A stretch of 64,000 nucleotides of DNA from Candidatus Thorarchaeota archaeon. GTDB lineage: Archaea; Asgardarchaeota; Thorarchaeia; Thorarchaeales; Thorarchaeaceae. The stretch covers positions 1,292,099 through 1,356,098 of the forward strand of contig JAIZWL010000001.1 of the NCBI GenBank assembly GCA_021498125.1. The letters are read 5' to 3'. The position numbers were made by a program, and so were the translations under genes. Position 1 is the first letter of the stretch, and each line of letters opens with the position of its first letter. Of the stretch, positions 22,500 to 36,790 are shown in pieces. The notes under the pieces were generated by a model, which was given only the letters and a program-made list of their open reading frames with translations, did not search any database and was not told the DNA's origin.

Positions 22500-22859
22500 C
22501 TAGTAGCCCCATTCTTGTCCCAGTCGTTGTCTGTACCAGCGTTGTCCCCGCTTGGTCAGATGATAGTAGCCTTGGAATTCCTCGATGAGGTGCATACTGA
22601 CCATACTCTGGAGAACTCCAAAGAGGCGGTCATCAGACGCACCAGTGATCTGTTTGAGGTCTTGAAACCTGAGTTTGCCTTCACGTTTCAAATGCTGTGC
22701 AATCTCGAACTTACCAACAGCACGAGTTTCACGACGTGTAATGATGTGTCCACAGTTTGTACAGAGCAGGTCTCCTTTTAGATCGTCACGAGCGACTTCT
22801 TTGCTACCACAGACTGGGCATGTTGTCTTTGAAAATCGCAATGCTCGTCTATGTGACAT
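22500..22859 (-). CDS. Zinc-ribbon and winged-helix protein
   Basis: The N-terminal third has a TFIIB/TFS-type zinc ribbon, CPVCGSKEV...LLCTNCG (residues about 14-37). The remainder is a winged-helix domain (AQHLKREGKLRFQDLKQITGASDDRLFGVLQSMVSMHLIEEF, then wing YYHLTKRGQRWY). It is a likely DNA-binding regulator or transcription-associated protein. The start at 22859 (MSHRRAL) is preferred over 22871 because the first four residues of the longer frame are not typical; either is possible. 119 residues. Confidence 0.7.
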   Translation of the reverse strand: MSHRRALRFSKTTCPVCGSKEVARDDLKGDLLCTNCGHIITRRETRAVGKFEIAQHLKREGKLRFQDLKQITGASDDRLFGVLQSMVSMHLIEEFQGYYHLTKRGQRWYRQRLGQEWGY

Positions 22860-22947
22860 AATTAAGACCAATTGTCCCGCATCGTGACCGCAGATAAAAC
22901 TAGCGAATGCGCAGTTATCCGTCTAGGTCAATCTGGTTCTGTTCATC

Positions 22948-23460
22948 TCACGTATCGCGTACAACCAAGTTTTTGAAGATCTCTTCATAATCGATCTCGA
23001 AGGGAACCCGCACTCCCGGACGCACATCTCCAGAGTTGCGGTCGAACTCTATGTATCCGCTCTTTGCCAGATCTCTCAGATCTTCACGAATGCTCCTGAG
23101 GCTTTTTTTCCTGATTCCTTGGACCTGTTTGACCGAGACCCACCCGCCTTTTTGATACGCAAGAGTCATCACTGCAAGGAGTGTTGCGGCAAGACGATCG
23201 GGAAGGACCTCTTGAGCAATGTCCATATCCTTCGTAGGTTGGACATCAATGTAGAATACCCTATCTATAGGGTTGAATTTGATAGATAGACCAAGAGGTT
23301 CAAGAAGATTGTGCAACGCTGCAAGTCGTCCGAACAGTACTGCTCGGCCCTCTAGCTCCGGATAACCAAGTGCGTCCAGCATATCTTCCACATCGGCACC
23401 AATTGGTTTTCCAGTTCTCGTGAGCAGATTCATCAAGACCGAGTATTCATTCAGGCCCAT
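22948..23460 (-). CDS. scpB: ScpB-like condensin subunit (KITE protein)
   Basis: The 170-residue protein has two winged-helix parts: residues about 1-80 (TRTGKPIGADVEDMLDALG...EGRAVLFGRLAALHNLLEPLGLSIKFN) and about 85-150 (QEVLPDRLAATLLAVMTLAYQKGGWVSVKQVQGIRKKSLRSIREDLRDLAKSGYIE). It would bind the kleisin ScpA and bridge the SMC heads. Its ATG overlaps the ScpA stop by one base (TAATG). It is the last gene of the SMC operon. Confidence 0.8.
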   Translation of the reverse strand: MGLNEYSVLMNLLTRTGKPIGADVEDMLDALGYPELEGRAVLFGRLAALHNLLEPLGLSIKFNPIDRVFYIDVQPTKDMDIAQEVLPDRLAATLLAVMTLAYQKGGWVSVKQVQGIRKKSLRSIREDLRDLAKSGYIEFDRNSGDVRPGVRVPFEIDYEEIFKNLVVRDT

Positions 23461-24122
23461 TATTGTTGACCTCTCTTGTCTGTGGTTATCTTTGTCAGAG
23501 TCTGATTGTCAGAGTCGTAGACTAGCAGCCCACGCGAGATAAGGATGATGATCATGAGGAACCGTTCGAGAATCACATCGATATCATCTGACTTTAAGAT
23601 CGCATGGATTGATATTGTTTCATTAGCAGGCAGGGCGTCATAAAATGCCGTTATTTTTTCGAGGGTGATCGCCTCTTCTGTCCGGATAACAAACTCTTCC
23701 TGTGCATCGGTGTCATCATCATCGGATGAATCACCTGTGGGTCGTTCTGCCTGTGCAGTGATCCCTCTAAGCAGTCTCTCCAGTGCTTTAGACAGATTGT
23801 GATAGTCCAATTTTGGAATGGTCAATGGTCGCCTGTATCGCATGGCCTTTCCAACTTGTCGTGTAGTCATCCGTTGCAATATCTTCACGTACACATCAGG
23901 TGCTAAGAGGATCCGCGCCAGTTCCTGAATTCGGTGGACTTTTGCGCCTAAGATATTGTTGAGGATCTCATCGATCGTGAGTCTTGCTGGGAGTCTGTCC
24001 TGAAGGTCTTTGAGTTGACGATACGGGTCGATGAGTGAGAGCTGTAACGGATCGACTCTCCCCTTGTCAATGGCCTCAGCCATCTGCTTTGCCTTTTTCG
24101 AGAGATCGCCGGACTCTGACAT
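23460..24122 (-). CDS. scpA: ScpA kleisin subunit of the SMC complex
   Basis: The 220-residue protein is short for a kleisin. The N-terminal helical domain would bind the SMC neck. A middle acidic linker (SSDDDDTDAQEE, about residues 130-142) is followed by a C-terminal winged helix (ITLEKITAFYDALPANETISIHAILKSDDIDVILERFLMIIILISRGLLVY) that would bind the SMC cap. It starts two bases after the SMC stop and overlaps ScpB by one base. The identity rests on position in the operon as much as on sequence. Confidence 0.78.
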   Translation of the reverse strand: MSESGDLSKKAKQMAEAIDKGRVDPLQLSLIDPYRQLKDLQDRLPARLTIDEILNNILGAKVHRIQELARILLAPDVYVKILQRMTTRQVGKAMRYRRPLTIPKLDYHNLSKALERLLRGITAQAERPTGDSSDDDDTDAQEEFVIRTEEAITLEKITAFYDALPANETISIHAILKSDDIDVILERFLMIIILISRGLLVYDSDNQTLTKITTDKRGQQ

Positions 24123-24124
24123 CT

Positions 24125-27100
24125 CTAGTTAGCCACCTTTGACATTGGGTCGTCCGGCTTCTCTTCTGCCTCATCGTCCTTTTCCAGTTCGCTCAGGATT
24201 GGCCCCTCAATTATCCTTGCTGGCGAATTGCCACTGGGCGCTGCCACTCCGATAAGTCGGTCAGCATACTTTAGCAGGGTCGTTGATTTTGCTGGGGTGA
24301 AGACCAAGAGCTGGCTCTCTTTTGACGCCTCTCTAAGAAGTTGCGCAGCAGCATTTGTATTCTCCAGATCGAGAAACGTATCGACCTCATCGAGGACATA
24401 TATCGGAGCCGGGTTGAACTTGTGGAGGGCAAGGATCAATGCGACAATGAGCATGGATTGTTCTCCACCCGAGCCGGCCTTGATCCCCAAAAATTCCTCT
24501 GCATGAGTCCGGATCTGAAAATGAATTCCGGCCGAATCATCTTGCTGTATGTGTTCCAGTCGTATCTCGCCTGTAAAGTCGATCTTTCGTAAAAGCCTGT
24601 TGACGTACTTCTCGACTTTTCGCAATGTCTTGGCCATATCTTTTTGATATTGGTCCTTAAGCGAGTCGATCGTGGAGATTGCTTCTGCGAGTTCCTCTTT
24701 AAGAGTGGCTACTTGTGCGTTCAGTACTTCCATGCGTTCTTTGAGTTGTTGATCCCTGACAGCAATTGATTCATCAACATCGGTGTAGTCCGTGAGCACA
24801 TCTCTGACCCGTGACAGTTCTGCATAGACCACCTCGTGATTTCTAATGGTGTTAGGTTGTGGTACGCCCTCGACACTGACAAGAATCTCATTTCTACGGA
24901 GTTCGAGTCTGCTCAGGGTGGCAAGTGTCTTACTGACCTCTGTCCTACTGGTCCTCAGTTCCATGTCTATCTCAGCAAGGCGTGTGTTTAGTTGGCGTTG
25001 ATCCGCGTGTATTTGGTCAAGTTGTTCCGAGAGAGCCTGTTTTTGTTTTTGATGTTCCTTCATTTGCTTGTCTAAATTGGCTATGTCTTGTAGTATCTCG
25101 CTGGACTCGTCTTCTGATTGCCCTAATGACTCAAGAAGTTCGTTTCTGCTTGTTTCCATCATCTCAATGTTCTCACGGATCGAATCCAGTTGCTCGCGGA
25201 AGTTTTTCATGCTCTGTTCAGATATGGCCACTCTTGCTTTGGCATCACCAAGGTCACTCTCGATATTTCTAAGTCTGATCCGGATAGCTTCCATCTCACC
25301 CGTTATGCGTTCACGTTCAGGAGGTTGATGTTGCTCAAGTTCTGCAACATGTACCTTTGCACGCTCGTGATGTGATGTCAGTTGAGCGATCTCTTCTTCG
25401 AGTTGTGTGATGTTCTCCTTGACCTGTGGAAGTTCCTCTGTGATCTCTTTCCTGCGTTTCCATGTGGTCTTCCATGCTCCCATCTGTGAGACAAGTTCAA
25501 GAATCTTGGTCCTCTTCTCGGAGACCACAGTGATCTCCGCATTGATCTCTGCTATCTTCTTCTCGACTTGTTGTGCTCTCTTCTTTGCTTCTTTCTGTTT
25601 CTTCAAGAATGGTGCAGTGGAGAGGATCTTAGGTGGCCCCTTCTTTGGGTGTCCGACGACGGTCTTCTTACGGCTCTCAAACACCTCTCCCTTTAGAGTG
25701 ACGGCACTGATGCCTTTGTAGGCAAGGCGCGCAGCAGTCTTCGAGTCTGTCGTCACCGCATAGTCCCCGAATGCGATCCTGAACTTTTGTAGAAGCGTGT
25801 CAGTCAGGCCCAGTAGTTCCCAGAGCCATCCCCGTACCCGTGAGTTCGGAGGTAACTCTGGAGCAGGGGCGACTTCCTGTTGAAGATCGACTAGGATGAT
25901 CGGAGCGGGGGCCTCGATCTCATCTCGTAATCGCCTAGTGAGTTGAAAGTCCGCTTTTTCAGTTGTGATGAATGCGTGGACAAGAATGTCTGATAGGACT
26001 GCCTCAGCCGGTGCCGCAAGCTCTTCATTTCCGACCAAGAGACCTCCAACTGGTCCTACGACACCTCCGAGCTGGTGTTCGTGCAAAAGCTTTTGGAGTT
26101 CTTGGACACTGGGCGGGATTCGTTCTGCGGTCTCCGATAATTTGAGTTCGAGGCTCTTGATCTCTTTTTGAAGTTCGGCAAGCTGGCTCTTTTCGCCAAA
26201 CAGGCTCTCATTGAGAGTAGCGAGGCGTGCATCTAGTTCTTTGAGTTGCCTGTCAAGGTCCTCTGCTGAGGAGGTCTCAAGAGTGGACCACGCTTGCCCC
26301 CACTTGTTTTCCATGGCCTCGATCTCTGCCTCAAGATGTTGCTGTTTGGTCAGGAACGCGCGTAACTCGATTCTTTTGTCTTTGAGTTGTAGGGCGAATC
26401 CGGAGACCTCCGTCTGAGCCTCACGCCGTTTTCGATCCCATTTCTCAAACTTCGCAAGTTGGGTCTCAAGCTCTTCTAATTCTCTTACGATCTTGTCCCG
26501 TTCTTGAGCAAGTTGTTGGGATTCAATCTCGGCCTTACCATGTGCCTTTACCACCCGTTTGAGATCGTCGCCTATTCGCCTTAGTTGTATCTTATCAGCT
26601 TCAATTGTCTCTTCTAGCTTCTTGATCTCTGAGAGTGTCTTTGCATTTCCCTTCTCAATTCGTTCTAGCTGTTCTTGTTTTGATTTAATTCTCGACTCGA
26701 GTCGGCCCAGCTCTCTCTCAATACTTCGTTGTTCACGTTCTAGTCTGGTCCTCTTCTCCTCCACTGCTTCGATCTCCTTGGAGACCTTTGCCTTGTCATC
26801 ACGGAGTTCGTTCATTCCTTCTTTCTGAGCCTCGATCTGTTTCTTAATCGACTCAATCCTCATCTCCACGTCCTGAAGAGTGGCCCAGGCATACTCACGT
26901 TCGAGGGCGCGTCGCTGTCTTTCGTATTCTCGTTTCTTCTCAAGTCGTTGCATATCTTTAGTGAGAAGGTGGATATCGCTCTCAACTGCTTTAGTCTCTG
27001 CGATGGCCTCTTCTAGTCTTTGCCTGTCGGCACTCAACTCTGATTCTTGTAGAATGATTTTATCTCGGGACCTGTCGAGGCCAGTTCCCTCCTCGATCAG

Positions 27101-27502
27101 TCGGAGGACCTGTTCCGGAGACGCATCTCGTAGATCATTTGTACGGCCTTGTGCCATGAAGACGAGTGGATTGTCGATATTGAAATGAAGATCTTCGATT
27201 GCCCGGCGCATCTCAGCGGCACGAACACGCTTTCCATCTATGTATGCTCGTGGAGTTCTTCCCATCTCAATCTTTCTTGTAAAGACCCGTGTTGTTCTAT
27301 GGTCCCGGACTGTGATCTCTATCTCTGCACTTCCGGTATGATTTCGAATGAACTGGCTCCATCTGTCATACCTGTTCTCTCGTTGATTTGACCCAAGGCA
27401 AAACTTGATGGCGTGAAAGATCGCGCTCTTTCCGGCGCCATTTGGTCCTACTATGATTGTTAGACCCGGTGTGAGTCTGACCAGTGCGTCTTTGAAGGTC
27501 AT
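24125..27502 (-). CDS. smc: SMC chromosome-organising ATPase, possibly Smc5/6-related
   Basis: The protein has 1125 residues from the first ATG. Walker A is GPNGAGKS near residue 20, two long coiled coils run from about 165 to 460 and 625 to 970, and the hinge lies between (about 465-620). The signature is GSGGEQSM near 1010 and Walker B is IYVLDEVDTFLD near 1038. The head phrase NIDNPLVFMAQGRTNDLRDASPEQ looks more like Smc5 than canonical SMC. The first ATG cuts off the conserved first strand (VQIESIRLKNF), which is encoded upstream; a CTG at 27550 with GAGGAGGG before it may be the real start. It forms a complex with ScpA and ScpB to organise DNA. Confidence 0.9.
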   Translation of the reverse strand: MTFKDALVRLTPGLTIIVGPNGAGKSAIFHAIKFCLGSNQRENRYDRWSQFIRNHTGSAEIEITVRDHRTTRVFTRKIEMGRTPRAYIDGKRVRAAEMRRAIEDLHFNIDNPLVFMAQGRTNDLRDASPEQVLRLIEEGTGLDRSRDKIILQESELSADRQRLEEAIAETKAVESDIHLLTKDMQRLEKKREYERQRRALEREYAWATLQDVEMRIESIKKQIEAQKEGMNELRDDKAKVSKEIEAVEEKRTRLEREQRSIERELGRLESRIKSKQEQLERIEKGNAKTLSEIKKLEETIEADKIQLRRIGDDLKRVVKAHGKAEIESQQLAQERDKIVRELEELETQLAKFEKWDRKRREAQTEVSGFALQLKDKRIELRAFLTKQQHLEAEIEAMENKWGQAWSTLETSSAEDLDRQLKELDARLATLNESLFGEKSQLAELQKEIKSLELKLSETAERIPPSVQELQKLLHEHQLGGVVGPVGGLLVGNEELAAPAEAVLSDILVHAFITTEKADFQLTRRLRDEIEAPAPIILVDLQQEVAPAPELPPNSRVRGWLWELLGLTDTLLQKFRIAFGDYAVTTDSKTAARLAYKGISAVTLKGEVFESRKKTVVGHPKKGPPKILSTAPFLKKQKEAKKRAQQVEKKIAEINAEITVVSEKRTKILELVSQMGAWKTTWKRRKEITEELPQVKENITQLEEEIAQLTSHHERAKVHVAELEQHQPPERERITGEMEAIRIRLRNIESDLGDAKARVAISEQSMKNFREQLDSIRENIEMMETSRNELLESLGQSEDESSEILQDIANLDKQMKEHQKQKQALSEQLDQIHADQRQLNTRLAEIDMELRTSRTEVSKTLATLSRLELRRNEILVSVEGVPQPNTIRNHEVVYAELSRVRDVLTDYTDVDESIAVRDQQLKERMEVLNAQVATLKEELAEAISTIDSLKDQYQKDMAKTLRKVEKYVNRLLRKIDFTGEIRLEHIQQDDSAGIHFQIRTHAEEFLGIKAGSGGEQSMLIVALILALHKFNPAPIYVLDEVDTFLDLENTNAAAQLLREASKESQLLVFTPAKSTTLLKYADRLIGVAAPSGNSPARIIEGPILSELEKDDEAEEKPDDPMSKVAN

Positions 27503-27556
27503 GAAGTTCTTCAGACGAATTGACTCGATCTGAACATCGCCGTTTCCCAGATTCTT

Positions 27557-28630
27557 CTACCCTCCTCGCCCCATGACGCGCTTGAGTCTGTCATGGTTCT
27601 TTTTAGCACTGATGAGACGTATGAGGCGATCCTCTTGGTCTCCTAGAAGCACGAATGGAAATCGGGCCACGAACTTGCTGTCTTTGGCCGATAGCGGCAG
27701 TCCCGCGTTGAGTGTCTCTACGACATGTTGAGATTGTGTATAATCTTCTGAGACCATCATCAGATACAATTGGTCAAGAAAATCATTTGGATATATAGTG
27801 TTCATCTGCCCGGTGATCATTTTCGCTCCCGAAATCTTACGCACTATCTCCGCGGTTCCACCAATTCCGCCAACCGGAACAATGCCCTTGTCCTGAAGAA
27901 GGTCGATCACATCCTTCAGTGTGACCGTCCCGCTCTCTCTCTTGATGGCTAATGCAGTCGCTAGATGGAGAAGATCAGAGTAGCCCCACCCTTCGGTCAT
28001 CTCGATAATTGTGGGAATATCAATACCCTCTGCTCCAGCAAGAACCTCCGAGATGACTTTGGTCCTGTCCTCATTTGTCGGATTGCTAAACACAAAGGTC
28101 CTATCAAAGTCTACTACACTGGCTGCCTCAAGTCTCTCAGGCCGTGCCGTTGAGGCTATCACAATAAGTTCATCCTCGTCCCATGTGACTCCCCGAAGAA
28201 GATCTCCAACCAGCATGCCCACTTCTCTTGAGGCTGTGAAGAGCGTATCAATCTGATCAATATAGACAACAGCTGGTCGTTCGCGTCGAGCAAGTTCGAA
28301 GAGCGTGCGTACTGCCACAAGCAGACGATCACTACTGAAGGACTCTGACACGCGAAACCGAATCTTCTTGAGTGGGACCTCCTTGCCAAGTGTGTCCGCA
28401 AATGCCTCAAAATTAGTTCCCACAGGACCCGCCAGCAAAACACGCCCGCCGAAGACCAGTCCCAACTCGGTCAGTCTCTCTCTTGCAGCTTTGAACTCCT
28501 GTATCTCTTGGTGAAATAAGATGGCCTTTTGTCTGACTGAGAACTGTTGCATACCCTCATTGCTGATGTCTTCAGGTGCGACTATTGTGATCATACGTGA
28601 GATGGCACTGTCTTCCACTTCTGCTACCAC
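27557..28630 (-). CDS. AAA+-like protein with degenerate Walker motifs, first gene of the SMC operon
   Basis: The 357-residue protein follows the classical AAA+ (Cdc48/FtsH-like) order, but Walker A reads GPVGTNFEA (68-76), lacking the Lys and Thr that bind ATP, and Walker B reads VVYIDQID (121-128), with Gln for the catalytic Glu. The second region of homology remains (SVVDFDRTFVFSNPTNEDR), including a possible arginine finger at R177, and a C-terminal helical lid follows. It probably cannot hydrolyse ATP. It starts with GTG at 28630 and ends 54 bases before the first ATG of smc in the same frame. A structural or loading role for SMC is inferred from position. Confidence 0.72.
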   Translation of the reverse strand: MVAEVEDSAISRMITIVAPEDISNEGMQQFSVRQKAILFHQEIQEFKAARERLTELGLVFGGRVLLAGPVGTNFEAFADTLGKEVPLKKIRFRVSESFSSDRLLVAVRTLFELARRERPAVVYIDQIDTLFTASREVGMLVGDLLRGVTWDEDELIVIASTARPERLEAASVVDFDRTFVFSNPTNEDRTKVISEVLAGAEGIDIPTIIEMTEGWGYSDLLHLATALAIKRESGTVTLKDVIDLLQDKGIVPVGGIGGTAEIVRKISGAKMITGQMNTIYPNDFLDQLYLMMVSEDYTQSQHVVETLNAGLPLSAKDSKFVARFPFVLLGDQEDRLIRLISAKKNHDRLKRVMGRGG

Positions 28631-28797
28631 CCGGCAGTCTAGTCTAGTAACATTTGTTTATTATCTATTCGTATACGTGAAATAATTGGCGCCCATGGTC
28701 TGTAACGCAAGTGGGTATTATAATTCTTATTTATCCGGCTCTTATGGTTCAATGCGCGTGATTTTTTGAGAGGTGATTGGCAGTCACTAGAGTGGAA

Positions 28798-28807
28798 TTT
28801 ATATATA
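28798..28807 (+). promoter_or_regulatory. TATA box of the AbrB-like gene
   Basis: TTTATATATA lies 30-39 bases before the ATG at 28837. Transcription would begin near 28828, leaving a leader of under ten bases. This supports the short form of the protein. Confidence 0.5.
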
Positions 28808-28836
28808 TTATGACAAATAGTGATTATGTGAGAATA

Positions 28837-29064
28837 ATGATTGTTCGACTTGATGAACGAGGGAGAGTCTGCATTCCAAAGGCCATGCGGGAGAAAACCG
28901 GAAACACATTTTTTATTGTAGAGACCCAACGAGGGATTCTCCTTGTGCCAGTGCCTTCCGATCCTGTAAAACAACTTGCGGAGATCGGGCGAAAGATTCC
29001 AGAGTTGTCCATCGAGGAACTTCGACGGGCGATTGCCGAACAGGCACAGGTGGAGTGTGCTTGA
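28837..29064 (+). CDS. AbrB/SpoVT-type DNA-binding protein
   Basis: A 75-residue swapped-hairpin protein begins MIVRLDERGRVCIPKAMREKTG, the classic start of this fold, and continues with TFFIVETQRGILLVPVP. A helical tail (DPVKQLAEIGRKIPELSIEELRRAIAEQA) follows. Two earlier in-frame ATGs (28777 and 28810) would read through the TATA box and are unlikely. Such proteins act as small regulators or antitoxins; no toxin gene is adjacent. It is divergent from the SMC operon, whose first gene starts at 28630. Confidence 0.82.
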   Translation: MIVRLDERGRVCIPKAMREKTGNTFFIVETQRGILLVPVPSDPVKQLAEIGRKIPELSIEELRRAIAEQAQVECA

Positions 29065-29281: not shown

Positions 29282-30988
29282 TTGTCAACACCAAGTGAAC
29301 GTCTGCGGCAAAAAGTGCATGAGGTAATAGCAACGGTGGAGAGTCATGGACTCTTTGTCCACTCGGGCGACCTACACATACGGTTCCGTCCCTCAACAAG
29401 CAGTTCTCGTGCCAAGTCTATTCGTCTGCCGCTGATAGTTGGTGCCTGCGTGATCAATGCACTTGTCCCTCGCTCTGCAATGTTACTAGTTGGTGGCCAT
29501 GGTGGAGGTAAGACGACACTCATCAAGCTCTTGGGCCGAATCATGACCGGAAAGAGTATTGGTGAGATCGAGGACGGCATTCTTCGGGGTCATCCACAAC
29601 TGACCGAAGAGAAGATGGTTGCGACACTACGCCCCGGGCCATTGATGAAGGATGGAGTCGAGGTCATAGTCTGGCGAAAGTTCGTGACCGATTTTTGGAA
29701 GATCATAGATGAGATCAACCGCCTCACACCACACGCCCAGAATATTCTCTTGTCAATGCTTGCAGAAGGCGAGTTGAAGTATTACGATGAGGTCATGCAC
29801 TGTGAAGAGTTCTGTCTCTATGCAACAATGAATCCCACGGACTCGGGAACCTTTGACCTAGCGCCTCCGTTTCTCGACAGGTTTGGACTTGCTGTCCCGA
29901 TAACCATGCCCACGGTAAGTGATCTTGAGACCATCTTAGCCACACGCGACGAACGGCTCTTTGGGTATGACGAACTCTGGCAGGTCCCCGCTCTGTTGAC
30001 TGAGGAAGACTTGCTCACGATCTGGAATCTGGCAGATAAGGTCCATGTGTCCCTTGAGGCCTCGGAGTACATCCGTGCTCTTATTCGTGAGTTCGGTGCC
30101 TGTGTTCGAGTCGACAAAAGTCAGACGCAGAGCCTCACCGTTGAGACCGGTCTCTGTGATGGTTGTCACTATAACACTGCTAAGAGTGTCTGTAACAAGG
30201 TAGTACTCCCGTTGAGCGTTCGAGCTGCAAAGGATCTGAATCGGTACAGTAAGGCTGTTGCATGGCTGGTCGGTGCGAGTGAGGTCTCAGTTGAGATCGT
30301 GAAATCGATTGCGCCACTGGTCTTCTGGCATCGGACTCGGTATACTCGTGATGAGGTCTCTAAGCAGCCTTTCTATGGGGACCGGTACAAGTTCACCCAA
30401 CGCCTCGTAGATCTTGCCACTGCTCGATTTGCGGCCCGTGAGCCCGCCCTGAAGATTCTGGCACGCCTCAAGAGAGGTGATGCGACCAAGAAGGAGATCA
30501 CGGAACTTCAAGAGATGGCTAAGAGTGACCTGATCGTCCAGATTGACTATGTGCAATTGGCAAAGGACCTCACCAAGTCCGGATACACAAAGATAGTCAA
30601 GCGGATAGACAAGGCCATTGTCAGTCGTGATGTTCCTGAACTGTCAAAGTTGCTTGATGAGCTGATGTCCAATGGTACGATTCCAAATAGAGGTATGTTG
30701 ATCGGGCGGGTCTCGGAGGCGTTGCACAGGCTTACCCTCTCGCAGTTTACTCTTACGTTCGAGACATGGCAAGAACTGTGGACTGCAATCAGTCTCAAGT
30801 ATCCCCCGATGACGCCTATTCTGAAGGAGACCCTCCACCCTCCCAAACGCCGTGTGATCCGGACCGAGCAGCTTACACTTGTGATCTATGCAACTGGCGA
30901 CTCTCCCGAATCGTCCGTCTTTATTGAGGTCTCAGGCGGGGCTCCGGCTCTTGAACTCAAGGCGATGATCGAGAAGGAGCTGGCATAG
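29282..30988 (+). CDS. MoxR-type AAA+ ATPase
   Basis: The 568-residue protein has Walker A GGHGGGKTT (71-79), Walker B WKIIDEINR (D142, E143), and sensor 1 in YATMNPTDSGTFDLAPPFLDRFGL, the standard MoxR phrase. After the lid domain, around residue 290, there is an unusual cysteine motif, CDGCHYNTAKSVC, that could bind zinc. The C-terminal 250 residues are long for the family. The start is TTG with GAGGT upstream. It is followed after three bases by a VWA protein, its usual partner; MoxR ATPases act as chaperones for VWA proteins and metal-centre assembly. Confidence 0.87.
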   Translation: MSTPSERLRQKVHEVIATVESHGLFVHSGDLHIRFRPSTSSSRAKSIRLPLIVGACVINALVPRSAMLLVGGHGGGKTTLIKLLGRIMTGKSIGEIEDGILRGHPQLTEEKMVATLRPGPLMKDGVEVIVWRKFVTDFWKIIDEINRLTPHAQNILLSMLAEGELKYYDEVMHCEEFCLYATMNPTDSGTFDLAPPFLDRFGLAVPITMPTVSDLETILATRDERLFGYDELWQVPALLTEEDLLTIWNLADKVHVSLEASEYIRALIREFGACVRVDKSQTQSLTVETGLCDGCHYNTAKSVCNKVVLPLSVRAAKDLNRYSKAVAWLVGASEVSVEIVKSIAPLVFWHRTRYTRDEVSKQPFYGDRYKFTQRLVDLATARFAAREPALKILARLKRGDATKKEITELQEMAKSDLIVQIDYVQLAKDLTKSGYTKIVKRIDKAIVSRDVPELSKLLDELMSNGTIPNRGMLIGRVSEALHRLTLSQFTLTFETWQELWTAISLKYPPMTPILKETLHPPKRRVIRTEQLTLVIYATGDSPESSVFIEVSGGAPALELKAMIEKELA

Positions 30989-30991
30989 GAC

Positions 30992-32728
30992 TTGACGCTG
31001 ACACAGCCTAACGCTCGTAATTCCCCACTGGTCGATGTGGCCCGGAAGGCATGGTCTCAGGCTCTCTCCGATTTCTATTCCCCACCTCTTCCGGAACCTG
31101 TCATAGAGCATAGTGATGAGGCGACGAGTTTCTTCTATGTGGACGACAAGACTTGGACGATTCATATCAACACGGCTGGAGTGCCGCATTACATGACCCC
31201 TGCTGAGGCCGAGCCGTTTCTGCGTTCCATCTGCCATCATGAACTTCAGCACTATCTCGTCTGCCCCTATGATACTGTGACCAGTGCCATGATGTTCGCT
31301 CGGGCGAGGCGTCATGTCAACAATGCGACGGCCATGTTTGTGTGCAATCTCTTTGCCGATCTTGTTGTTGATTCCCTCCTGTTGAAACGTTTCCCGCAAC
31401 TGACGCATGATCGCATCCTGTCCTCCATACACGAGTCTGCTATTCGCGGCGAAACCCACTCTGATCTCTGGGTGCTCATCGTCACATGCTATCGTGTGAT
31501 GTGGGGATTTCCGATCCCCCGCTCTGTTAATGTACCTGATGATACCTTTGAGGCCGCTGAGGCAATAGTGGCTGTCACGAAAAAGTATCGGGATAACGAG
31601 CGGAAATGGCCAAAGGCTACTGAGGAGATCGCAAAGATCATCGCGCAATGGCGTCACTCGGATGATGAGCAATTATCCGGAGCTGGCGGTGATCTCTCAG
31701 GTGGCGAGGAAGGCGGGGGTGAGGGTGGTGATAGACGAATAGAGATCACTATCCCCTTAGACGTTGATGCTATCATGGGTAGCCCCGTTGAGATCCGCAA
31801 CGGCGATATCGCGCGAAGGTGCGCAAACCCCTCTCAGGCCTCCACCTCCGATGATGAGCTGGCACGCCTCGCCTCTGATGTTGAGTCACGGGGCGGCGAT
31901 CTGGATGATCTCCGGGCAGTCCTTCTTCTCTTAGGTGCAGGAACCTATGGTCGCGGTTGGACTCGTTTCTGGTACCGTGCAAAGGTCCGGCGTCTGATTC
32001 GTATCGATGTCCATGAGCAGCGTCCGGAAGGTGCAATTCCTCTGACGCCTCAAGTGTGGCGGCTTGGCGATCCTATCGAAGAACTGGACCTTGTTCAGTC
32101 CCTGCAGGCCTTTCCTGTTCTGGTTCCAAACATGTCCACACGCCGATGGCTGCGCATCGAGTCGTTTGGTGATACAGAGTCACGAACGCCGCCAGACCTC
32201 TTAATCGTGATCGATTCGAGTGGTTCGATGACTTGGTCAATGAGCAGGACGCGACTCTCTGGTGAGTATCATCTTGCATTGATTTCCGCCTTCGGGGCTA
32301 TGAACTTTGCATTTGCTCGTGGTTGCCGCGTTGCAGCAATCAACTTCTCTGTGGAAACTCGAATTGCAAAGTGGTCACGGGATCGACAGACAATTGAGGA
32401 TGTTCTCCTCTCCTATCAGGGAGGCGGGACAATCATGCCAGTGGGTGACATGATACGCTTGTGTGATGAGGCACGAAGACCAGTTCTTGTTCTTATGATC
32501 ACAGATGCGGAGGTTGATAACGGGCCAGAGATGGTTTCAGCGGTCAAACATCTATCCAGTCGAGGTCATCATGTCTTCATGTTCCATATTCATGCTGGTG
32601 AGAATGAGAACTATATCCAATTGCAAAAAAGGCTCCTTAATGCGGGTGCTAGAATAGTCCCTGTGAATAATCAATCAGACCTTGTTGGATTAGTTCTAAG
32701 AGATACCCGTGCTGTATATGGTATTTAG
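30992..32728 (+). CDS. VWA-domain protein with HExxH metallopeptidase-like N-terminal domain
   Basis: The 578-residue protein begins with a domain carrying HHELQH (H83, E84, H87), an HExxH zinc motif, with a downstream FVCNLFADLVVD helix that could supply the third ligand. This resembles the DUF2201 metallopeptidase-like group. A Gly/Glu-rich linker (about 230-250) leads to a VWA domain: MIDAS IVIDSSGSM near residue 405, and later MITDAEVDN. The start is TTG at 30992, three bases after the MoxR stop. The two form a MoxR-VWA module. Its last 160 residues are repeated in diverged form at 36296-36790. Confidence 0.85.
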   Translation: MTLTQPNARNSPLVDVARKAWSQALSDFYSPPLPEPVIEHSDEATSFFYVDDKTWTIHINTAGVPHYMTPAEAEPFLRSICHHELQHYLVCPYDTVTSAMMFARARRHVNNATAMFVCNLFADLVVDSLLLKRFPQLTHDRILSSIHESAIRGETHSDLWVLIVTCYRVMWGFPIPRSVNVPDDTFEAAEAIVAVTKKYRDNERKWPKATEEIAKIIAQWRHSDDEQLSGAGGDLSGGEEGGGEGGDRRIEITIPLDVDAIMGSPVEIRNGDIARRCANPSQASTSDDELARLASDVESRGGDLDDLRAVLLLLGAGTYGRGWTRFWYRAKVRRLIRIDVHEQRPEGAIPLTPQVWRLGDPIEELDLVQSLQAFPVLVPNMSTRRWLRIESFGDTESRTPPDLLIVIDSSGSMTWSMSRTRLSGEYHLALISAFGAMNFAFARGCRVAAINFSVETRIAKWSRDRQTIEDVLLSYQGGGTIMPVGDMIRLCDEARRPVLVLMITDAEVDNGPEMVSAVKHLSSRGHHVFMFHIHAGENENYIQLQKRLLNAGARIVPVNNQSDLVGLVLRDTRAVYGI

Positions 32729-36295: not shown

Positions 36296-36790
36296 TTGAT
36301 GAACAGGACGCGACTTTCCGGTGAGTATCATCTTGCGCTTGTATCTGCATTTGGGGCTACTGACTTTGCATTGAGTCGGGGCTGTCGTGTGGCTGCAATC
36401 AACTTCTCTGTTGAGATCCGTACTACGGGATGGGGTCGTGACCGCCATAAGATTGAGGATGTTCTTCTCTCCTATCAGGGTGGGGGCACCGTCATGCCCG
36501 TGCACGAGATTACTCGGTTGTGTGCTGACGCGCAGAGGCCTGTCTTAGTCCTGATGATCACTGATGCTGAGGTAGATAATTGGGATGAGATGGTGGCCAT
36601 GACCCGGCATCTCACAGATCGGGGGCATCACCTGTTCCTCTTTCATATCGGCGCTGCTGATACTGGTGAACAGGAGGAGGCGCGTGTCAGTCTATCCCGG
36701 GCTGGAGCCACTGTAATTCCTGTACGCAATGTCAATGATCTCGTGGGGCTTGTTCTGCGTGATATTCACGCGATATATCGGGCCCCATGA
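36296..36790 (+). pseudogene. Truncated VWA domain, diverged copy of the 3' end of the gene at 30992-32728
   Basis: The 164-residue frame aligns with the last 165 residues of the VWA protein upstream (TRLSGEYHLAL, AINFSVE, EDVLLSYQGGGT, MITDAEVDN, GLVLRD) at roughly 65-70% identity by eye. Similarity begins just after the MIDAS DSSGS, so the metal-binding loop and all N-terminal domains are missing. A TATA-like TTTATATG (36274-36281) about 20-25 bases before the ATG at 36299 means it could still be transcribed without a leader. It is best read as a leftover of recombination at the edge of the ABC-2 island. Confidence 0.7.

Follow-up and report, generated by a model that had tools for sequence, protein, structure and literature searches.

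The gene cluster described here, located in a stretch of 64,000 nucleotides from a Candidatus Thorarchaeota genome (the window), raises the question of what an AAA protein that has lost its catalytic residues contributes to an operon encoding an SMC protein. The cluster lies on the minus strand in the order X-smc-scpA-scpB, and its genes overlap or sit a few bases apart. Its first gene, designated X (27557..28630, minus strand), is an open reading frame with a GTG start and a TAG stop and encodes an AAA-derived protein of 357 aa.

The protein consists of one helix followed by an AAA domain with its lid and a C-terminal helical domain. It matches the Pfam family AAA (PF00004) with 36.6 bits (E 7e-9) at a cut-off of 21.2 bits and is thereby a member of this family, its matches in the PDB are classical AAA proteins (NVL, Cdc48, PAN and FtsH), and its confident AlphaFold model (mean pLDDT 84.9) resembles the structures of FtsH, PAN and p97. 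The fold shared with the classical AAA proteins PAN, FtsH and CDC48/p97 extends over residues ~57-245, including the lid. Unlike these proteins, X lacks the Walker A lysine, the Walker B glutamate and the sensor-1 asparagine and carries an additional C-terminal domain without a match in the PDB or Pfam.

At residues 68-76 the sequence GPVGTNFEA stands where GPPGTGKT would be expected (former Walker A, GPVGTNFE, 28406..28429, minus strand), the GKT having given way to DFE in the relatives' consensus GPPGTDFE. The former Walker B (AVVYIDQID, 28247..28273, minus strand) has glutamine in place of glutamate, while the relatives mostly have glutamate followed by lysine or arginine. Neither the GKT/S of a catalytic Walker A (GTNF in the window) nor the acidic pair of Walker B (DQ in the window, mostly EK or ER in relatives) is thus present. 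The initial annotation had read both altered motifs, GPVGTNFEA and VVYIDQID, exactly as they stand, and the AAA-like nature it had assigned to the protein is confirmed by Pfam, PDB and AlphaFold. Its statement that the arginine-finger region is kept holds for one arginine; the second one of the LRPGRFDR box is lost, the box reading VVDFDR in X (remnant FDR, 28100..28108, minus strand). The sensor-1 asparagine is gone as well (STARP), and no aromatic-glycine pore loop was seen in X.

The Walker A lysine is missing in 28/28 Thorarchaeia copies of X that were compared, the replacement having the consensus GTDFEAF. Homologues with an intact Walker A in close relatives, which according to the initial annotation would have indicated a sequencing error or lineage-specific decay, were not found among these copies, all of which are dead at the same positions. 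In close pairs the dN/dS of X amounts to 0.08-0.135 overall where measurable, and to 0-0.05 in the C-terminal domain where synonymous sites are unsaturated, indicating that purifying selection acts on both the AAA and the C-terminal part. Taking together the loss of the lysine in all Thorarchaeia copies, the conserved GTDFEAF and the low dN/dS, the dead state is old and maintained. The AAA core is increasingly degraded across the Asgard lineages, as would be expected if X were in decay, or an artefact of the assembly, and served no function today; nevertheless, such an explanation is extremely improbable, given that the reading frame is open in all genomes, that six close pairs show strong purifying selection and that the replacement motif GTDF is maintained across genera. 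Sequencing error and lineage-specific decay are ruled out by the 28 dead copies and the dN/dS values. Judged by sequence, X has retained the AAA fold, and none of its close relatives possesses the catalytic residues.

The second gene of the cluster (smc, 24125..27550, minus strand) encodes an SMC protein of a second Asgard type, here referred to as SMC-A. Its start is most likely the CTG at 27548-27550, 6 nt past the TAG of X, where relatives have TTG, GTG or ATG. This start is preferred because in those relatives that can be read smc begins no more than ~25 nt past X and aligns at this point; the alternative ATG at 27502 would cut into the first strand. A GGAGG is located 10 nt upstream of the CTG, within the end of X. 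A fusion of X and SMC, or a readthrough of the stop, was rejected, since the common frame seen in the window occurs in only about one third of the genomes, the proportion expected by chance.

The product of smc belongs to the SMC superfamily, as indicated by the Walker A GPNGAGKS, the signature SGGEQ and the Walker B LDEVD, a coiled coil between them and a match to SMC_N (132.9 bits). It fails the models of canonical prokaryotic SMC proteins, scoring 238 bits against TIGR02168 (cut-off 567) and 255 bits against TIGR02169 (cut-off 729). The canonical SMC of the same genome is encoded elsewhere (G000:C1:100496-104068; TIGR02169 885 bits), adjoined by its own ScpA gene with PF02616. In the phylogenetic tree the SMC-A proteins of Thorarchaeia and of the Asgard families f2, f27, f4 and f6 form one clade (support 100/99) apart from the canonical SMC (100/100).

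The two genes downstream of smc encode candidates for a kleisin and a kite protein. Neither the scpA-like product (23460..24122, minus strand, 220 aa) nor the scpB-like product (22948..23460, minus strand, 170 aa) matches a Pfam or NCBIfam model above cut-off, PF02616 included in the case of the former, and both are divergent. For the first one ScpA chains are among the top matches in the PDB profile search (4i99_C, E 0.049; 5xns_C, 0.14; 5xg3_C, 0.35), and these weak matches together with the gene order suggest its identity as a kleisin. The second one, a putative tandem winged-helix protein, yielded only weak winged-helix matches in this search (MAGE-B1, E 0.75), so that its assignment is weaker still than that of the kleisin, both assignments relying on sensitive profiles. 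The tight operon with smc, scpA and scpB proposed in the initial annotation therefore stands with regard to gene order, whereas the names ScpA and ScpB apply to divergent proteins and the SMC is not a canonical one.

Smc-ScpAB of bacteria is likewise encoded by a single cluster that holds the genes for an SMC, a kleisin and a kite-like protein; it differs in having no AAA-derived subunit and in its SMC, the prokaryotic SMC models being those that SMC-A fails. The euryarchaeal Smc-ScpA also combines an archaeal SMC with a kleisin and is described as consisting of these two components, with no kite (PMC7055376); its counterpart in the window genome is the separate canonical SMC. The suggestion in the initial annotation that an AAA subunit fixed to an SMC operon is not a standard part of bacterial or euryarchaeal condensin is supported and can be refined, the partner being the second, Asgard-specific SMC and the MoxR-VWA pair described below being a further element of the system. 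An assignment of the cluster to a defence system (Wadjet, Lamassu) was rejected, as merely generic SMC-superfamily matches were obtained (LmuB, 107 bits) and no Jet or Lmu companions were detected in the cluster. A zinc-ribbon and winged-helix protein encoded 3' of scpB (22500-22871, minus strand) is conserved in Thorarchaeia. It was rejected as a part of the module since its gene remains in genus g4, where smc is missing.

The distribution of X was followed by whole-genome profile searches and inspection of neighbourhoods across Asgard families. X is located directly 5' of smc in 24/24 Thorarchaeia loci, one of which has a partial smc at a contig end (G035), and 27/27 named Thorarchaeia loci agree with this order. 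In total, SMC-A follows immediately, in the same orientation, after 61 of the 64 X genes; two of the remaining three are broken by contig ends (G035 and G048), and the third (G192) has no SMC match among those listed. SMC-A without X was met only once, there with a truncated start. The order of X before smc and the scpA and scpB candidates was also found in families f2 (7/7 loci read) and f27 (4/4) as well as in f4, f6, f11 and f28. The neighbourhood, for which the initial annotation had recommended a search of Asgard genomes, is therefore conserved before the same SMC type in several families. Nearly all genomes are metagenome-assembled, and their incompleteness inflates absences. A loss of X in G011 and G015 was accordingly rejected, the operon being cut by contig breaks. 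Loss of the whole module is backed by genus g4 only, in which X, SMC-A, ScpB and MoxR are jointly absent (G006 and G017) and the flanking zinc-ribbon gene is present in the middle of a contig.

The C-terminal helical domain (27560..27793, minus strand; YPNDFLDQLY...MGRGG) is common to the Asgard families and, judged by sequence, is the conserved core of X and its most conserved part, a feature that the initial annotation had not noticed. It comprises ~75 aa, is confidently predicted (pLDDT 93.7), is not contained in Pfam and gave nothing below E 3 in a fold search of the PDB. The domains of Thorarchaeia and f2/f27 align with an hhalign probability of 98.8% (E 5e-17), and a weaker link (88%, E 3e-6) connects those of f11/f28 to the others. 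Searched alone in 129 genomes, it was detected in 64, with one copy each, and it may thus serve as a simple marker for locating and testing the system.

The AAA part varies between the families. No Pfam match was obtained for the X proteins of f2 and f27 that were scanned; the N-terminal part of the f2 protein is a degenerate AAA remnant (hhalign against Thorarchaeia 96%, E 4e-9). In f4 and f6 the lid and the C-terminal domain are retained and most of the AAA core is lost. With so little of it remaining in f4, f6 and f27, the AAA part may be of minor importance. All X proteins examined within the SMC-A clade lack the Walker A lysine, whereas those of f11 and f28, which are located outside this clade, possess an intact GKT with D-N at Walker B. 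The restriction of the intact Walker A to these two more distant families marks this as an old loss rather than a sequencing error, and the decay was probably a single event that took place after the association had formed. In all probability SMC was originally accompanied by an AAA protein that bound nucleotide, a state that persists in f11 and f28, and the simplest history comprises one association with such a protein followed by one loss. The SMC partners in f11/f28 (L112-L115) are ~850 aa long, with coiled coils much shorter than in other Asgard SMCs. An AAA protein with fully intact motifs encoded directly before a very divergent 1,075-aa SMC in family f20 (G106, L118:2936-7050) was set aside due to the very long branch and the lack of a recognised ScpA or ScpB; it is possibly an independent AAA-SMC pair.

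The remnants of the fold might indicate that X binds nucleotide or joins mixed hexamers of the CDC48/PAN type as a non-hydrolysing member of the ring, since the P-loop glycine frame GPxGT and one finger arginine survive in most Thorarchaeia copies and the model resembles FtsH, PAN and p97. Such a role appears very unlikely considering that almost all relatives have lost both the lysine and the Thr/Ser of Walker A and have a scrambled Walker B. Furthermore, little of the AAA core remains in f4 and f6, and a ring role could therefore not be a general one.

We infer the membership of X in the SMC complex and its function from operon order, co-occurrence and covariation of evolutionary rates, all of which are indirect evidence. 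The rates of X covary with those of SMC, with partial correlations of 0.81 for the AAA part and 0.74 for the C-terminal part (permutation p 0.0005) when two neighbouring genes are controlled for. X is probably a non-catalytic, AAA-derived subunit or a dedicated adaptor of the SMC-A/kleisin/kite-like complex, specific to Asgard archaea. It would be docked onto the SMC-kleisin core through its C-terminal domain, and the dead AAA-like domain would provide a platform for binding. The energy for loading or releasing rings or for remodelling the head state would come from SMC itself, perhaps also from the neighbouring MoxR-VWA proteins, which might, speculatively, be recruited for loading, release or remodelling of SMC rings.

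These neighbours are encoded on the plus strand by a gene for a MoxR-type AAA+ ATPase (AAA_5; 29282..30988) with an intact Walker A (GGHGGGKTTL) and a gene for its paired VWA/MIDAS protein (30992..32728). They resemble the RavA-ViaA-like pairs, in which an AAA_5 ATPase is likewise encoded beside a VWA protein; unlike pairs of that type, the Asgard pair is linked to SMC loci. MoxR-VWA is a good candidate for, and likely, the active AAA+ machine of the pathway. It divergently adjoins X in almost every Thorarchaeia locus long enough to cover this position, and in f4 and f6 it is co-directional and just upstream of X. MoxR is present in 55/60 genomes with a dead X, in 0/4 f11 genomes with a Walker-A-intact X and in 4/65 genomes without X, two of the latter being truncated-contig cases; these numbers were tallied by hand and do not represent independent events. 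Moreover, covariation with VWA is seen for the AAA part of X (partial correlation 0.52) and not for the C-terminal part (0.08). All this could be explained if the SMC complex were remodelled by an active AAA+ protein, namely the adjacent MoxR-VWA, which X served as adaptor or co-chaperone, X being a transient visitor to the complex rather than a stable subunit. We regard this as rather unlikely. In f2 and f27 a distance of 2.4-3.2 kb separates MoxR-VWA from the canonical smc in the four genomes in which, among the matches listed, both are on one contig (G053, G142, G145 and G136; in G136, family f27, at L138:14440-18001), a position that again ties it to SMC and yet places it near the other SMC and away from X. 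In addition, MoxR was not detected in five f2 genomes with X, and the whole pattern derives from few independent events.

With X as a probable subunit or dedicated adaptor, the dead-AAA protein encoded with the second Asgard SMC suggests that SMC machines have a component not described before. A literature search that covered few subscription papers and preprints returned no account of X, of its operon or of any SMC subunit derived from AAA proteins, and no paper tying a MoxR-VWA pair to SMC. In Smc5/6 no AAA-derived subunit is known. Known SMC subunits are of the kite or the HEAT-repeat (hawk) kind, and an AAA-derived subunit would, if true, be a third kind. Kites are retained in Smc5/6, and hawks took their place in condensin and cohesin (PMC5228436).

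X occurs in the archaea closest to eukaryotes, and the SMC-A paralogue could inform the origin of multiple SMC complexes and of Smc5/6. By profile scores SMC-A is nearer to eukaryotic SMC5/6 than the canonical SMC, its profile scoring SMC5/6 chains with 196-218 bits and the canonical one with ~95, but the SMC-A profile scores chains of cohesin and condensin (SMC2/3) equally or higher, up to 270 bits. Two versions of SMC are distinguished among archaea, one of them 'SMC5/6-related' (PMC9389158, citing Yoshinaga and Inagaki 2021), and SMC-A may have its place near the latter. It is conceivable, though doubtful, that the second SMC machine of Asgard archaea comprises, besides kleisin and kite, a class of subunit derived from a dead AAA+ motor, that a midasin-like MoxR-VWA remodeller, which loads or unloads the rings, functionally replaced the lost ATPase and that the SMC belongs to the lineage from which eukaryotic Smc5/6 arose.

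A third SMC of 1,492 aa is encoded in family f27 (L142:6126-10601); it branches with the canonical SMC and scores 633 bits against TIGR02169, and similarly long SMCs occur in f2. In the window, the gene for a small AbrB/MazE-like protein, which may be a regulator, separates X-smc from the divergent MoxR-VWA genes (28777-29064, plus strand). Furthermore, a partial duplicate of the VWA gene, ~61% identical to its C-terminal part, is located ~4 kb downstream (36296-36790, plus strand).
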